A stretch of 64,000 bases of DNA, taken from Planctomycetota bacterium. Its GTDB lineage: Bacteria > Planctomycetota > Planctomycetia > Gemmatales > Gemmataceae. The notes under the pieces are model-generated. The model was not told the origin of the DNA and did no database searches. It saw only the letters and a list, made by a program, of their open reading frames with translations. Position 1 is the stretch's first letter, and each line of letters opens with the position of its first letter. Where the stretch lies: contig JACPZP010000051.1 in assembly GCA_016195405.1 (NCBI GenBank), forward strand, positions 1 through 64,000, written 5' to 3'. The position numbers and the translations under genes were made by a program. This document shows, piece after piece, positions 19,375 through 26,499 of this stretch.

Positions 19375-19452
19375 CGCCATTGACGAATGGCAATGGCCCG
19401 TGCATTGTGGAAGTGGGTTATTGTTTCTCACTTCGACCGGAGCGCGACGGCC

Positions 19453-20097
19453 ATGCGGCAAATCTCTGCGGGACTGGCGATACTGTTCATCGGCAGCATG
19501 ATCCTTGCCCAGGACGACGGCGACAAGATCGCGTCGGGCCTTGGCGTGGGCAAGATCTTGCCGGGTTCGTTCGATAGCCTCATCATTAACGGCAAATACA
19601 AGGGCAGGCAGCATTGCCTGGTGTGCGAGCACGGGCTGAATCCCGCCGTCGCGGTGTTCGCGCGCGAGCCCGGCGAAGGCAAAGACGGTCCGCTCAACGC
19701 ACTTCTTTCGAAGCTCGACGAAGTCGTTGAGCGCCATCCGGATGAGAGCCTGGGCGCCTTCGCAATCATCCTCAGCCCCGATGCCAAGAGTTCCGCCAAC
19801 AATCCCGACGAGACCGATGCCGCCAAGCTCGTCGAGGAAGCCCGTGCCCGCGACGAATTGGTCAAACGCCATTCCGCCCGCACCGAGAAGCTGAAATCCC
19901 TGGTCGTCGGCTGCCTCCTCCCGGAAGGGCCGAAGGGCTACAACATCAATCCTAAAGCCGAGGTGACGGTGCTGCTCTACGAACGTCACAAGGTAGTCGC
20001 CAACTTCGCCTTCGCACCGGGTAAGATGAGCGACGCGGACGTGGGTCGGATCGTCGCCGCGGTGGAGAAGATGGCGACGGGCAGCGCGGCGAAGTGA
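19453..20097 (+). CDS. Exported thioredoxin-like protein, CxxC paralogue of the predicted selenoprotein
   Basis: A 214-residue protein with a signal peptide (MRQISAGLAILFIGSMILAQ). The redox motif HCLVCEHG lies at about residues 57-64 and is followed by PAVAVFARE. The C-terminal half ends PKAEVTVLLYERHKVVANFAF. The same layout recurs in the gene at 24784-25335. That gene reads SGL-x-VG, then CLV-TGA, then SPVAMIFARE, and ends DADVTVVLYNKRTVEANHTF. The two are paralogues, and this one has Cys where the other has an in-frame TGA. A periplasmic redox or peroxiredoxin-like role is inferred. Upstream in-frame codons from 19387 lie in repeat-adjacent sequence and are not taken as coding. Confidence 0.85.
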   Translation: MRQISAGLAILFIGSMILAQDDGDKIASGLGVGKILPGSFDSLIINGKYKGRQHCLVCEHGLNPAVAVFAREPGEGKDGPLNALLSKLDEVVERHPDESLGAFAIILSPDAKSSANNPDETDAAKLVEEARARDELVKRHSARTEKLKSLVVGCLLPEGPKGYNINPKAEVTVLLYERHKVVANFAFAPGKMSDADVGRIVAAVEKMATGSAAK

Positions 20098-20797: not shown

Positions 20798-22792
20798 TTA
20801 ACAGGGATTCGGCCCGTTCAAGTCAAAAAACCTGCTCGTGTCATGGTATTTCGCTCCCAGTTCCGCCGCGAAGTCCGCATCGCTTTTCATGTCGCCGACC
20901 ACCACCAGATGGTCGCGTGCCAAGCGGTGACGTTCCATGAGCATTACGCCTAACCCCGGAAACGGCTTCCGGCAGAAGCAGCCGACCGGGAACGCGGGGT
21001 GGGGGCAGTAGGCGATGTCGGCAACCGGCAGCTTGAGCAGCTCGACGGTGCGGCGGAAAGCGGCGTCGGCGGCCTCGCGCGACAGCTTTGCGGAAGCGAT
21101 GCCGCTTTGGTTGGAGACGAAAAACAAGAGGTAGCCGGCATCGATCCAGCGGGCCAGCGTGTCGCGCCGGCCGGGGAGCAGCTCGACGTCATCGGGATCG
21201 CGGGGATAGATTTCACCGCTCCGCGTTCTCCGCAAGGTGCCGTCCACGTCCAAGAGCAAGCCTTTGCGCGTGTGGCCGGGATCGACTTGGCGCACGAACG
21301 GGATTGGATCGACGGCCGAGAATCCTTCGTCAAGGGCGGGCGTCTCATAACTTCCAATCCAGCGCGCCAGCGCTGCCGGGGGCGGCAAATTCGGATCGGT
21401 TTTTGCCAGTACCTTCATGTCGTCGGGGCCGAGCAACTTGTCGTATTTCCGCAACATACGGATGACGATGTTGATCCGAGCCTCTCCGGGCGGGGTCTGA
21501 AGGTTTCGGCAGCGGACCGGAACGCCGTGCGCATGAGCAACCGCGATCACCGGAGCGCGTGAGAGCCTGCTTGGGTAAGTATTGTCGAGAACGACTCGAT
21601 TGCGGCCGGAGGCTAAGTGCTCGCGGAGGCGTGGAATCAAATCGTCGAGTTTGCCACCTTCGATGTCGCGATTGAGCCGGACGTAGCCTTTGTCGACGTA
21701 CTCTGAGACCAGCTGCGATTTGCCCGCGCCCTGGATGCCCATGAGGATGACGACCTCAGGCTTGTCTCCCGGCCCTGCGCCCGCTCCTAGAGTCGGCAGG
21801 CCAACAGGCGTCGCCGTTGGTGTTAAGGCGCTCACGGCGTCGGGACCCGGCGTGAACGGAAACTTCACGCTGAGTGCGGTTCGGTCGCTCACATCCAGCT
21901 TGATTCCAAGTGCGGCCAGCGACGAACGAACGCTCTCGACTCGCGTGGCGCCGCTGAGCGGCACGACATGAGGAGCGGCATCGAGCAGCGTCGCCAGCGC
22001 GATCTCGTGCGGCGTGGCTTTGTGGCGTTCAGCCAGCGGCGCGAGAACCTTGTCCTTGGCAAGACGGGCGACCTTCGCATAGCCTCCGAGCGGGCGATGC
22101 GCCAGGAAGGGAACGCCCTTTTGTCGCGTCAGCTCGACCATGCCATCGGTGGCCGACTTGCGATTGAGCACGCTCAATTCGTTTTGCACAGCGGCGATCG
22201 GGAAGTGACGCATCGCTTGCTGAAACTCGCCGGGCCCAATGTTGCACAGTCCGAGGTGCTCGACCTTGCCTTGTTTCTGCAATTCCGCCAGGGTTGCAAG
22301 AATCTCTTCGAAAGGCACTTGTGGATCGCGCGCGTGCAGTTGCAGCAGAAACAGGCGCTCGACGCCGAGTGCTTCCAAGCTCCGGTCAACGGCTTTGCGG
22401 AGCTGTTCGGGTTTGCCGCGCGGCATCCAGCGGCCTTTCGGGCGGGCGAGGCCGACTTTCGTAAGAATTCGGACCTCGTCGCGAGGGCCTTTCCACGAGT
22501 CGAGTGCGGCGCGTACGAGGCGTTCGCCGTAGTGGAGATCGGATTCGTCGAGGCAGTAGACGTCGGCGGTGTCGAGGATGCGGATGCCGTAGTCAAGCGC
22601 GAAGTGAATGACGGCGACGGCGTCCGCTTCGGAAGGCCGGCCCTCCGTACAAAGGCGCAATAAACCGAGCCCGAGCCGGCACTTCAGGTCGCCGAGAATA
22701 GTGACGGCCTTTGGTGTGCTTGGCGGACTCTTTGGTTTCCCAGATTTGGATTTATCTTCTTCGGATTTGTTTCGGATTTCGCGTTTCGACAT
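20798..22792 (-). CDS. Three-domain fusion: aldo-keto reductase, P-loop kinase, HAD phosphatase
   Basis: A 664-residue protein from ATG 22792; upstream in-frame codons run through the rpsR region and are not coding. Residues about 25-310 are an aldo-keto reductase (CRLGLGLLRL, ILDTADVYCLDESDLHYGERLV, LTKVGLARP, LFLLQLHARDP, GLCNIGP, AHRPLGGYAKV, PLSGATRVESV). Residues about 350-500 are a P-loop kinase (VVILMGIQGAGKSQLV, RDIEGGKLDDLI, VVLDNTYPSR) resembling polynucleotide kinases. Residues about 515-660 are a HAD-IIIA phosphatase (LLLDVDGTLRRT, FFVSNQSGIA, CRKPFPGLG, VVVGDMKSDADFA). The last two together resemble PNKP-type end-healing enzymes in reversed order. Fusion to a reductase is unusual. 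rpsR lies upstream, 14 bases away. Confidence 0.85.
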   Translation of the reverse strand: MSKREIRNKSEEDKSKSGKPKSPPSTPKAVTILGDLKCRLGLGLLRLCTEGRPSEADAVAVIHFALDYGIRILDTADVYCLDESDLHYGERLVRAALDSWKGPRDEVRILTKVGLARPKGRWMPRGKPEQLRKAVDRSLEALGVERLFLLQLHARDPQVPFEEILATLAELQKQGKVEHLGLCNIGPGEFQQAMRHFPIAAVQNELSVLNRKSATDGMVELTRQKGVPFLAHRPLGGYAKVARLAKDKVLAPLAERHKATPHEIALATLLDAAPHVVPLSGATRVESVRSSLAALGIKLDVSDRTALSVKFPFTPGPDAVSALTPTATPVGLPTLGAGAGPGDKPEVVILMGIQGAGKSQLVSEYVDKGYVRLNRDIEGGKLDDLIPRLREHLASGRNRVVLDNTYPSRLSRAPVIAVAHAHGVPVRCRNLQTPPGEARINIVIRMLRKYDKLLGPDDMKVLAKTDPNLPPPAALARWIGSYETPALDEGFSAVDPIPFVRQVDPGHTRKGLLLDVDGTLRRTRSGEIYPRDPDDVELLPGRRDTLARWIDAGYLLFFVSNQSGIASAKLSREAADAAFRRTVELLKLPVADIAYCPHPAFPVGCFCRKPFPGLGVMLMERHRLARDHLVVVGDMKSDADFAAELGAKYHDTSRFFDLNGPNPC

Positions 22793-22806
22793 TCGAATTT
22801 GCGCGG

Positions 22807-23049
22807 TTATTCGCCGACGTACGGCATCAGCGCCATGAACCGGGCCCGCTTGATCGCGTCTTTGACCGCCCGCTGGAAAGCGGCGCAGTTGCCGCTGCGC
22901 TTGCGGCTGAAGAGCTTGCCCTGGCTGGTACACATCTTCTTGAGGCCCTGGACGTCTTTGTAATCGACAAACGCGGGCCGCGGACAGCCTTCCTTCGTGC
23001 AAAACCGGCACCGATTCTTGCGGCCACGACCCAGCTTCTTGCGAACCAT
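22807..23049 (-). CDS. rpsR: 30S ribosomal protein S18
   Basis: An 80-residue S18 of the small ribosomal subunit, starting at ATG 23049 with GGAGG 7 bases upstream. The core VDYKDVQGLKKMCTSQGKLF and the basic C-terminal segment (RAVKDAIKRARFMALMPYV) are characteristic. The N-terminus carries CRFCTKEGC, and with a further Cys this makes a zinc-binding ('C+') version. It is not in an rpsF-ssb-rplI cluster here. It sits alone upstream of the AKR/kinase/HAD gene on the same strand. Confidence 0.96.
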   Translation of the reverse strand: MVRKKLGRGRKNRCRFCTKEGCPRPAFVDYKDVQGLKKMCTSQGKLFSRKRSGNCAAFQRAVKDAIKRARFMALMPYVGE

Positions 23050-23137
23050 GCGGGAACCTCCAGAAAGATGCAAAGCGATAATGTACAGCTTGGCTTGTCG
23101 TGAGGCAAGAATGGAACGCAGATGAACCGGATACGCA

Positions 23138-23214
23138 CAAGCCCGCACGCGAGTCTTCGAACGCGCGGGATCCTGTCGGTACCCCGCGCGCTCGAAGACT
23201 CGCGTGCGGGCTTG
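23138..23214. repeat. Long palindrome, family CAAGCCCGCACGCGAG
   Basis: CAAGCCCGCACGCGAGTCTT is mirrored by AAGACTCGCGTGCGGGCTTG. The arms pair over about 31 bases with one mismatch around a GATCCTGTCGGTAC loop. It lies between the divergent rpsR and MFS genes. Confidence 0.88.
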
Positions 23215-23261
23215 TAGTGATCCATCTGTCGCCGTGTTTCGTTTCTTGGTACGCTTGCTCC

Positions 23262-24605
23262 ATGTTGACGACGGAAGGAACCTCGGGAAATCGCGCCCGG
23301 TTGGCTTTGATTTTGCTGCTGGCGATCAACTTCTTCAATTACGTGGATCGTCAGGTATTGGCCGCCGTGGAGTCCGAGATCGAGAAGACGTTCTTTCAAG
23401 CCGGCGAATACGACCGAAACGACGATGTCACCCGCGCGATGATCGAGGGCGCTTTGGGTTCGCTCAACCTTGCGTTCATGATCTCTTACATGATCGCCGC
23501 GCCGATCTTTGGCTTTCTGGGCGATCGCATGGCCCGCTGGCTGTTGATCGGCATCGGCGTTTTGATGTGGACGGCGGCCAGCGGCGCTTCGGGCCTGGCC
23601 GGCAGCTTTACGATACTTTTTCTCACGCGTTGTTGCGTCGGCGTCGGCGAAGGGGCATACGGACCGGTGGCGCCCACGATCATCGCCGATCTATATCCAG
23701 TCGAAAAACGCGGGCGGAAGCTTGCCTGGTTCTATGTGGCCATCCCTGTCGGCAGCGCGTGCGGCTACATTCTGGGTGGCCGGACCTTTGCGCTCACGAA
23801 CGATTGGCGCTGGGCATTTTACATTGTGGTGCCGCCTGGAATCTTGCTGGGTCTTTGGTGCTTTCTGATGCGCGATCCTCCGCGCGGGCAGTCCGACGAC
23901 GCCACGCCAAAGAAGAAAGTTACGATTAAGGATTACTTGATGATCCTGAAGACGCCTTCATATGCGCTCAATACCGCTGGGATGACCGCCATGGCCTTCG
24001 CTTTGGGCGGGATTGGCTTTTGGATGCCGCGTTACATCCGAGATCGCATTGTGAATCCGCTTGAGTCTGCTGGAACAGTTCTTTCCGTACAGGAGAAAGC
24101 GGACATCCTCGCCGACGTGAACTTTCATTTCGGCGTCATCGTGGCCATCGCGGGTTTGACCGCGACTATCGCCGGCGGCTGGCTGGGGGATGCTCTGCGC
24201 AGCCGGTTTTCCGGTTCTTACTTCTTGGTCTCGGGGGCCGCGATGATCTTGGGCGTGCCCTTCGTTTTGCTGGTGCTTGCGTTGCCGTTCCCACTGGCGT
24301 GGGTGTTTGTATTTCTGGCGTGTTTTTGCTTGTTTTTCAACACCGGGCCGACCAACACCATATTGGCAAACGTCACCCATCCGGCGGTGCGCGCCAGCGC
24401 ATTCGCGCTGAATATCTTCATTATCCATGCTCTGGGCGACGCTGTTTCCCCCACAATCTTGGGGGTAATCAATGGCTATACGCGGAACATGAACGTCGGC
24501 TTCATGGCGGTGACGGCGATGTTCTTGGTCGGCGGGATTTGTTGGCTGCTCGGCGCGCGTCATCTCGAGCGCGACACCACCTTGGCGCCAGGGCGTCTTC
24601 ACTAG
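23262..24605 (+). CDS. MFS transporter, spinster-like
   Basis: A 447-residue major-facilitator protein with 12 predicted helices. The start ATG 23262 gives MLTTEGTSGNRARLALILLL. Helix 1 ends in NFFNYVDRQVLAAV, the signature of the spinster-like subfamily. The loop 2-3 motif appears as GFLGDRMARWLLIGIGV. VGVGEGAYGPVAPTIIADL and a second-half GGWLGDALRSRF follow. Spinster relatives move lysolipids or organic acids; the substrate here cannot be told. In-frame codons upstream of 23262 lie in a palindromic repeat and are not taken as coding. Confidence 0.9.
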   Translation: MLTTEGTSGNRARLALILLLAINFFNYVDRQVLAAVESEIEKTFFQAGEYDRNDDVTRAMIEGALGSLNLAFMISYMIAAPIFGFLGDRMARWLLIGIGVLMWTAASGASGLAGSFTILFLTRCCVGVGEGAYGPVAPTIIADLYPVEKRGRKLAWFYVAIPVGSACGYILGGRTFALTNDWRWAFYIVVPPGILLGLWCFLMRDPPRGQSDDATPKKKVTIKDYLMILKTPSYALNTAGMTAMAFALGGIGFWMPRYIRDRIVNPLESAGTVLSVQEKADILADVNFHFGVIVAIAGLTATIAGGWLGDALRSRFSGSYFLVSGAAMILGVPFVLLVLALPFPLAWVFVFLACFCLFFNTGPTNTILANVTHPAVRASAFALNIFIIHALGDAVSPTILGVINGYTRNMNVGFMAVTAMFLVGGICWLLGARHLERDTTLAPGRLH

Positions 24606-24693: not shown

Positions 24694-24700
24694 TGCCACG

Positions 24701-24738
24701 GAAACAAAAAAACGCCGTCGCTCCACTTGCGACGGCGT
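24701..24738 (-). terminator. Intrinsic terminator for the predicted selenoprotein gene
   Basis: On the minus strand, ACGCCGTCG and CGACGGCGT form a 9-bp stem with a 9-base loop. It is followed directly by TTTTTTTG, starting 45 bases past the stop at 24784. This is the cleanest Rho-independent terminator in the window. Confidence 0.88.
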
Positions 24739-24783
24739 CCGTTGGGAATGATCCGATCGAATGAGTGAGAAACCCGGGCGGAA

Positions 24784-25335
24784 TTACTTGAGGATTTTCT
24801 TCAAATCCCCCACCACCTTCTCGACGGCGGCGGTGTTGAGTTCGCCCTTGCGAAACGTATGGTTCGCCTCAACGGTGCGCTTGTTGTAAAGCACGACGGT
24901 GACGTCCGCGTCCTTGGCAATTTTGTAATCCTTGGGACCGGCGACATTGTCAACGGCGAAGACCAGTTTCTTGAGGCCTGCCTTCTCCGCCACTTTCTTG
25001 AGCTTGTCGGCCGCCCCCTCCTCGTCCGTCAGGAAGGTGACAAAACTGCACATGCTCTTGTCCTTGTTCTCAACGGTTGCGGCGTCAATCTTCTTGACCA
25101 AACTGGTCAAGGAGTCGCTGGCTTCGCGCGCGAAGATCATAGCGACCGGGCTTCCGCCGGAACTTCAGACCAAGCAGTTCTTCTTGCCGGCCTGCGACCC
25201 CGTCAAATTGAGCGGGTGGAACGGCGTGGGGTGTTCGCCGACTTGCAGGCCAGATTTCAGAGCGTCTCCTGCCCAGCCGCTGGCTGTCACCAGCGCGGCG
25301 AGCATGAGGCCCCCCACAGCTAAGCGATGTTTCAT
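24784..25335 (-). CDS. Predicted selenoprotein: exported thioredoxin-like protein with CxxU motif
   Basis: From ATG 25335 (AGGAGG 11 bases upstream) a signal peptide (MKHRLAVGGLMLAALVTASG) leads in frame to K-K-N-C-L-V at codons 51-56. A TGA follows at codon 57 (25165-25167). The same frame continues as SSGGSPVAMIFAREASD to a TAA at 24784: 183 residues if TGA is read as Sec. The paralogue at 19453 has HCLVCEHG at this place, so TGA replaces the second redox Cys. Both sides of the TGA are conserved in the paralogue, which argues against chance adjacency. Hairpins lie downstream of the TGA (see 25113-25147). Followed by an intrinsic terminator; rtcA is upstream on the same strand. Alternatives are a nonsense mutation or sequencing error. 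Confidence 0.78.
25113..25147 (-). promoter_or_regulatory. Candidate SECIS-like hairpin after the TGA of the thioredoxin-like gene
   Basis: In the mRNA, GGUCGCU (starting 18 bases after the UGA) pairs with AGCGACU. Inside this, CUUCG and CGAAG pair around a four-base loop about 35 bases after the UGA. A competing small hairpin, AGC-CCGGUC-GCU, would put a GGU loop only 17 bases after the UGA. Bacterial SECIS elements lie just 3' of the UGA with a G/GU-containing apical loop. Which fold is used is unknown. Confidence 0.45.
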
Positions 25336-25431
25336 CGTAAACCTTGCCTCCTAGTGGAATTGGAGTTACGGGATCATTCCCAAACCTTTTCATAGGTTTA
25401 GGCTTTTAGACGTACGGGACAATGATTCGTT

Positions 25432-26499
25432 TCAAACTTTTTCAGGCGTAGATTCAGTCGCAGTCTGCGGCGTGATCGCAACACGGCCCGCTTCCCCTTC
25501 GGCGCCTTCAACACGAACCTCTGTAGCGACAAAGCGACGGATGACTTCGACATTTGTTAAGAAATGCTGAGTAAGGGACGCAACCGGAAACCTTGAAGGC
25601 TCTTGCGCCAAAGCCAACGGCAAAAGAAGCTGGTCGGCGCTGTGCGCATCCACGCCCAAAATCTCCGCGTCGAGATACGTTTCCACTTGCTGGGCGGCTT
25701 CATCGGCGACTTTCTCGGCCGGTTTGCCGCGCTCGCCGAGAGCGAAAAAAGAAGTCGGCGCCGGCTTCGTGTTCAGCTCCAGAAAAAGGACCGTTCCCGG
25801 ACCGTGCGGCCACGCCTCTTCACGAATATCAACCGGCAGCTTATAGCGTGAAAGCCGCTGGCGCGCGCGGTCGGCCTGGCGACGGGCGATGCTTGCGGGC
25901 AATCCGGCAGCGATACTAAGGCCGGTAATGTGAGTCACTTCGCCGAGTGACTCCAGTTGAAGGCCGCCGATCCGCGCGCTCGGTGAAATACTCGCATCGA
26001 TGAGTCCACCGCCGCGCGGAAAGAAGCCCGGCCGATGCAGACGGAGATCGATGTTGATACCGAGTTGAGCCAAGTACGCGCGCCAAGTGACTTCGAGAAA
26101 ATGGAAGCACGGACTGGCTTTGACATGCGTGCCGCCCTCGATCATGACGGTGCTTGGCGCCTGGGCGCGGGCCAGCGGAAGGTAGACGGTATGGAGGACG
26201 AGTGCCGTTGCACCGGCGGTGCGAATGGGGAAGTGATAGGTTCCGGGAACGACCGCGCCGGGTTCGAAGACGAGGTCAATGCTGCCAAGGCTCGCGCCGC
26301 GCATTTTCGCCTGACCGATGGCGGCTGATGCTTGGACGCTCATTAGGTGCTGCGGTTGCAGCCCTGGCTTTGACCGCCGCGCGCGGATATTGCGAAGATG
26401 AAACGCCTTGCCCGTGATGAGCGCAAGCGCGAGGCTGGTGCGCAGAATCTGCCCGCCGCCCTCGCCGTGAGAACCATCGAGTTCGATCATGCTGGCCAT
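25432..26499 (-). CDS. rtcA: RNA 3'-terminal phosphate cyclase
   Basis: RtcA converts RNA 3'-phosphates to 2',3'-cyclic phosphates using ATP through a covalent His-AMP intermediate. The N-terminus IELDGSHGEGGGQILRTSLAL is the family signature. RSKPGLQPQHLMSVQA, EGGTHVKASPCFHFLE and GFFPRGGG follow. The catalytic His lies in the C-terminal SLTQHFLTNVEVI. Length (355) is slightly above the usual 340. Two starts are possible, ATG 26499 and ATG 26490, the latter giving the classical MIELDG. No RtcB ligase or RtcR is nearby. The gene is followed on the same strand by the predicted selenoprotein. Confidence 0.95.
   Translation of the reverse strand: MASMIELDGSHGEGGGQILRTSLALALITGKAFHLRNIRARRSKPGLQPQHLMSVQASAAIGQAKMRGASLGSIDLVFEPGAVVPGTYHFPIRTAGATALVLHTVYLPLARAQAPSTVMIEGGTHVKASPCFHFLEVTWRAYLAQLGINIDLRLHRPGFFPRGGGLIDASISPSARIGGLQLESLGEVTHITGLSIAAGLPASIARRQADRARQRLSRYKLPVDIREEAWPHGPGTVLFLELNTKPAPTSFFALGERGKPAEKVADEAAQQVETYLDAEILGVDAHSADQLLLPLALAQEPSRFPVASLTQHFLTNVEVIRRFVATEVRVEGAEGEAGRVAITPQTATESTPEKV

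Follow-up and report, generated by a model that had tools for sequence, protein, structure and literature searches.

We describe a gene on the minus strand (24784-25335) of a 64,000-nucleotide stretch of a Planctomycetota genome (the window; Gemmataceae, assembly GCA_016195405.1, contig JACPZP010000051.1, positions 1 to 64,000). Our data support a model, to which we assign a probability of about 0.87 on the basis of sequence comparison, according to which this gene encodes a secreted or periplasmic thioredoxin-fold protein with a CxxU motif, whose in-frame UGA would be translated as selenocysteine (Sec) by SelA, SelB, SelD and tRNA-Sec under the direction of a two-part selenocysteine insertion sequence (SECIS) composed of a helix, P1, and a distal hairpin, P2. 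The displaced, apparently two-part SECIS is a more surprising part of this model than Sec itself. The features on which the model builds are the following.

24784..25335, minus strand: predicted selenoprotein gene, 183 amino acids, Sec57 (C54-L-V-U57), secreted, thioredoxin-like
25165..25167, minus strand: in-frame TGA, codon 57, read as Sec according to sequence comparison
25113..25147, minus strand: P1, proposed SECIS spacer helix, +20 to +54 (U of UGA = 0)
25093..25111, minus strand: P2, distal SECIS hairpin CUUGACC-AGUUU-GGUCAAG, +56 to +74, proposed SelB site
25100..25104, minus strand: P2 loop AGUUU (A/G-G-U-U/C-U in most relatives)

The gene had been proposed by a sequence-only reading of the window as one open frame broken only by a TGA directly after C-L-V, and we confirm this: 25335-24784 is a single 183-codon frame with the TGA at codon 57 (25167-25165) as its sole interruption and C54-L-V directly before it. 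Translated with Sec at codon 57, the product reads MKHRLAVGG...KKNCLVUSSGGSPVAMIFARE.... Homologues were taken from 41 related genomes, from named genome contigs (79 loci, nearly all titled planctomycete and one titled Bacteroidales) and from 102 genomes of the order, part of the homologue-search matches being fetched; identical copies were removed before counting, reducing 268 hits to 176 (184 to 164 in an earlier set). At the codon-57 column the 174 alignable homologues show 69 TGA, 91 Cys and 14 other residues (S 3, K 3, T 2, A 2, R, E, Q, V), a further two of the 176 being gapped. All 69 TGA codons lie in this column with no interior TGA elsewhere in the 174 aligned homologues, and the protein is conserved on both sides of the TGA codon. 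Since the column is mostly TGA or Cys and TGA is absent elsewhere inside the genes, CxxU/CxxC is, judging from the alignment, a redox pair with Sec or Cys as its second residue. On a tree of 158 members the Sec label has to change 14 times, and well-supported branches force at least eight of these changes, so Sec and Cys were exchanged several times. Individual loci combine members: at L181 a Cys copy lies beside a TGA copy, and at L033 two TGA copies are neighbours.

The Sec machinery expected by the sequence-only reading was found completely in the genome of the window (G000; 6.86 Mb, 214 contigs, 90% complete), i.e. selA (563 bits), selB (339 bits, above cut-off), selD (294 bits) and tRNA-Sec (74.8 bits versus a gathering score of 47, with all 91 model positions matched). 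Across the 41 genomes, using a list of genome-locus pairs typed by hand from the search tables, a TGA member occurs in 22 of 30 genomes having selB and/or tRNA-Sec versus none of 11 having neither (Fisher p 2.4e-5). The machinery, the alternation of Cys and TGA, the co-occurrence with selB or tRNA-Sec and a hairpin present only in TGA members together strongly support decoding of the UGA at codon 57 as Sec, as had been proposed. Two observations concern the machinery genes themselves: selD of the window genome (L029/L093, G000:C67) sits in a 765-amino-acid open frame, making a fusion protein possible, and in G018:C1405 (L095) selB is preceded, about 200 bases upstream and on its own strand, by a Cys member.

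The published bacterial SECIS (bSECIS) range is 16-37 nucleotides from UGA to the apical loop (passages and figure legend of PMC13188914), and a hairpin with an RGK-type loop at this usual position was found in none of the 69 TGA members. A distal hairpin about 60 nucleotides after the UGA, which the sequence-only reading had not noticed, is instead present in 62 of the 69 TGA versus none of the 105 non-TGA members under a relaxed rule, and in 51 of 69 versus 0 of 105 under a strict pattern. P2 of the window has a five-nucleotide loop, seven base pairs and -9.2 kcal/mol, values lying within the bSECIS ranges for loop (3-9 nucleotides), stem (4-16 base pairs) and minimum free energy (-7.5 kcal/mol or lower), and its AGUUU has a G in one of the first two loop positions, as the same model asks. 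Among the 62 members the loop is AGUUU in 34, AGUCU in 18, GGUCU in six, AGUU in two, AGUAU in one and AGGUU in one. Comparison of the stems shows covariation, with compensated changes to CUUGGCC/GGCCAAG (L076, L222), CUGAUCC/GGAUCAG (L090, L109) and CUUGGUC/GAUCAAG (L292), and P2 is the best-conserved RNA element of the TGA members. The P2 segment encodes L-T/A-S-L-V-K, with the Ser codon of the loop being AGT in 45 of 45 cases having Ser (in 21 frames of the window AGT accounts for 7.5% of the codons for Ser) and the first Leu being TTG in 46 of 53 (22.7% in the window). As both usages are far above that of the window, codon choice shows a constraint on the RNA of this segment.

Eight further Sec genes of the same genome set, recognized by their UH motif, were examined for a hairpin at the usual position, i.e. 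five formate dehydrogenase genes (fdhA; L116, L118, L119, L120, L138) and three fmdB-like genes (L141 in the window genome, L142, L143) which we take to be formylmethanofuran-dehydrogenase-like. All eight have a hairpin with a GGUCU loop about 18 nucleotides after the UGA, suggesting that SelB of these organisms most likely recognizes a C-RGUYU-G loop. P2 carries nearly this loop, about 42 nucleotides farther downstream. L141 (G000:C114:61000-66500, minus strand) is a second selenoprotein gene of the window genome, formylmethanofuran-dehydrogenase-B-like with the UH motif and a canonical hairpin, GUGCCC-GGUCU-GGGCAC.

A covariance model of P2, R1, was built from 27 rows of a 36-row alignment of TGA members (A2, see below). 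All 25 of its matches with E up to 0.0017 in the 41 genomes fall in TGA members, and on the sense strand of 60 loci of the order, many of which repeat earlier sequences, it matches 33 of 34 TGA and none of 26 non-TGA loci. In seven previously unused TGA members P2 lies at +56 without exception, in two of them in variant form, and in five new non-TGA members P2 was not found; one of the seven, from a genome outside the class of the window (L260), was found by R1 itself. Of 294 genomes of the phylum, two have matches with E no higher than 1e-4, at the window and at one new TGA homologue; the search scored 26 candidates per genome, so that absences there carry little weight. Use of P2 outside the family was considered and rejected, as the 41 genomes hold no convincing R1 match of this kind: of seven weaker matches read by eye, five lie in plain open frames (e.g. 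kinases), one where a coding frame ends and one in a region without a long frame, and no in-frame TGA at the right distance is visible by eye at any of them. A weak match in G037 (L243, E 0.0025) was not located by the pattern.

Between the UGA and P2, at +20 to +54, the TGA members share the helix P1. We compared 36 of 38 non-redundant TGA rows (A2), leaving out L109 and one L084 row as being in another register, with a control of 36 Cys rows (A3). A2 was drawn from the 55 of 62 TGA rows with at least five of seven P2 pairs in register, a selection favouring P2 pairing. The rows of A3 were picked by hand, so as to limit shifts, among the 45 best that a set of 79 non-redundant Cys rows offered. 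Over P1 and P2 88.9% of cells are paired in A2, with 40 both-side changes versus 16.7 in shuffles (reached in 0 of 500), and comparison with A3 (57.4% of cells paired, 230 of 500) shows P1 pairing above the Cys control. With ribosum scoring, RNAalifold yields both P1 and P2 for the TGA members and nothing comparable for the Cys members, and the median folding z-score of the P1 region is -2.25 in the 36 TGA versus 0.1 in 79 Cys members (p 4e-14).

The linear distance from the UGA to the P2 loop is 60 nucleotides for the window, as it is for 50 of 54 genes, the others having 57, 69, 69 and 70, and thus lies outside the 16-37 nucleotides of the bSECIS model. With P1 folded, each of the 54 genes counted (those of the 62 TGA genes with the P2 pattern found, the first 15 nucleotides being kept unpaired) has a shortest path of 23-31 positions between the UGA and the P2 loop. 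Because this folded path falls within ordinary bacterial SECIS spacing, we infer that P1 acts as a spacer. In the mechanism that we propose, SelA, SelB, SelD and tRNA-Sec would decode the UGA as Sec, P1 would fold away about 35 nucleotides and would thereby bring P2 to the path distance from the UGA that is typical of ordinary bacterial SECIS loops, and SelB would bind the RGUYU loop of P2. We consider it probable, at a lower level than the model as a whole, that this is a bipartite planctomycete SECIS whose foldable spacer helix fixes the distance between UGA and SelB hairpin, the folded path and not the number of nucleotides being what matters.

Several observations weigh against the selenoprotein model or its two-part SECIS. 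According to the sequence-only reading, Sec would be refuted if close relatives had a sense codon for anything but Cys or Sec here; such codons occur in the 14 homologues mentioned above, solely outside the close group. L036, 50% identical, has Arg (CGC) at the Sec column in an otherwise similar motif, CLVR, and is without P2, while the remaining such residues are in more distant members. The selB of the window genome occupies 553-1635 of a short 5.3-kb contig and its match covers the N-terminal part only. TGA members occur in the draft assemblies G003 and G017 with tRNA-Sec not detected, and in the draft assembly G011 with selB not detected. RNAalifold with default settings predicts P2 only and not P1, and the weakest P1 pairs fail in 13 and 14 of the 36 sequences. 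Seven of the 69 TGA members have no hairpin under the relaxed rule: four are variants by eye, L052 having a 4-base-pair stem, L082 a bulge and L294 and L219 other loops (AGACU or AUGUU), and both L084 genes and L184 have no recognizable P2. The L084 genes are two tandem TGA members in the draft genome G003. L184 (frame 2943, plus strand) has a TGA at the family column and resembles CLYC-type Cys members; it may be a sequencing error, a decaying gene or a recent change.

These points bear differently on the alternatives. UGA might be Sec with a plain distal SECIS, SelB tolerating 60 nucleotides and P1 being a by-product of coding or folding control; the default RNAalifold result and the P1 pairs failing in many sequences speak for this reading, which we nevertheless regard as unlikely in view of the z-score difference between Sec and Cys members in the P1 region and of the fact that members with linear distances of 57, 60 and 69-70 nucleotides all fold to 23-31. 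Less probable still, with perhaps one chance in ten, the signal for SelB would be P1 or another element near the UGA, with P2 as a helper, e.g. in pausing. The P1 apical loop starts 34 nucleotides after the UGA, within the published range, and the pairing of P1 is better in TGA members than in their Cys counterparts, but its CNCG loop derives from the conserved FAR codons common to Cys members and has no G in the first two positions, and it is P2, not P1, that combines nearly the fdhA/fmdB SECIS loop with the strongest RNA conservation. That the TGA is a sequencing error or marks a pseudogene with a product ending at C-L-V, as L184 without its P2 could suggest, has next to no probability given TGA at one and the same codon of 69 distinct homologues, protein conservation beyond it and a hairpin confined to TGA members. 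Reading of the UGA as another residue by a suppressor tRNA, general read-through or a code change is equally far-fetched, since UGA is still a stop in this genome, both neighbours (25432-26499, minus strand, and 19387-20097, plus strand) terminating in TGA, since TGA members are absent from the 11 genomes without selB and tRNA-Sec and since the usual alternative residue is Cys.

Turning from the SECIS to the protein, the AlphaFold model shows a thioredoxin-like fold (predicted local distance difference test, pLDDT, 89.3), with the closest structures being of the DsbE/ResA and peroxiredoxin type (Foldseek E 2.7e-8) and with a match to the DsbE-like 3gl3 of Z 16.9 and 2.2 Å over 138 residues, supporting the thioredoxin-fold idea raised earlier. 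The protein has this fold, probable secretion and a redox pair spaced by two residues in common with TlpA/ResA/DsbE and peroxiredoxin-like proteins. Regarding the order of secondary structure only, the short helix with the CxxU comes before strand 64-69, after which there is no conserved Cys. In ResA-type proteins, in contrast, the CxxC follows that strand. C54 and U57 would likely form a selenenylsulfide and act outside the cytoplasm, in thiol-disulfide or peroxide reduction. Pfam and NCBIfam have no match over cut-off for the window protein, and among 21 members scanned, with cut-offs printed for the first member only, the matches in these databases are all weak (best E 0.005 and 0.0017), with no match common to more than two of the 21. 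A sequence search of the PDB with the family profile gave nothing significant.

The surroundings of the gene contain the following further features.

25267..25335, minus strand: probable signal peptide, residues 1-23, by eye; pLDDT <50
25347..25352, minus strand: Shine-Dalgarno sequence AGGAGG
24710..24740, minus strand: intrinsic-terminator-like stem-loop with T tract
19453..20097, plus strand: Cys homologue (HCLVC) of the same family; open frame starts at 19387

The strong ribosome binding site that had been noted is borne out by AGGAGG at 25352-25347, 11 nucleotides before the ATG at 25335. Residues 1-23 do look like a signal peptide, a judgement made by eye in a part of the AlphaFold model with pLDDT below 50. 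The intrinsic terminator holds in so far as a 12-base-pair stem with a T tract is present at 24740-24710; with one site versus 1.2 expected in shuffles it is weak evidence alone. The nearby gene described as a Cys paralogue is a homologue with HCLVCEHG, matching in two pieces (E 1.1e-9 and 1.1e-6), but the closest Cys paralogue is G000:C114:126730-127251, 55% identical. Upstream, 25432-26499 (minus strand) encodes an RNA 3'-terminal phosphate cyclase; close to it lies an 846-amino-acid frame (20798-23338, minus strand) comprising aldo/keto reductase, AAA_33 kinase and polynucleotide 3'-phosphatase domains. No conserved neighbour unites the TGA members; among the neighbour groups taken as real genes, the largest comprise nine loci for TGA members and 16 loci, one of them with a TGA member, for Cys members. 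An Rfam search of 24700-25400 gave nothing near the gathering score.

The 2026 review PMC13188914 counts 119 selenoprotein families and subfamilies and mentions that some putative SECIS elements fall outside the model. Planctomycete selenoproteins and Sec genes, fmdB and fdhA included, are treated in passages of PMC4807772, from which the formylmethanofuran-dehydrogenase name used above partly comes. Neither this family nor such a spacing is described in the excerpts of PMC13188914, PMC1794560, PMC4807772, PMC1088965 and PMC8659212, and in the open-licence literature, judged by titles and the start of abstracts without supplements, we recognized no description of the family or of a displaced bacterial SECIS. 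Measured against the bSECIS model as given in passages of PMC13188914, P2 has almost the same loop as the fdhA/fmdB hairpins found in these organisms, but this loop lies 60 (57-70) nucleotides after the UGA instead of 16-37, with a conserved helix between. The CxxU families of table 1 of that review have the CxxU motif and Cys homologues in common with ours, and none was recognized as the same when compared by names and model ids. Judging from these comparisons, the family is new and so far occurs almost only in loci titled planctomycete.

If the model is true, the bipartite SECIS would be a class of bacterial SECIS outside the 16-37-nucleotide model. A standard bacterial SECIS predictor limited to this range should miss P2, and as bacterial selenoprotein finders search just downstream of the UGA, genes in which a helix bridges the gap to a displaced SECIS would have escaped notice in planctomycetes, and perhaps elsewhere too. 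The arrangement of P1 and P2 offers a natural test of how hairpin-bound SelB reaches the ribosome, the roles of both elements being separable. As a new CxxU thioredoxin-fold family with many exchanges between Sec and Cys, these proteins are useful for studying why Sec is gained or lost.
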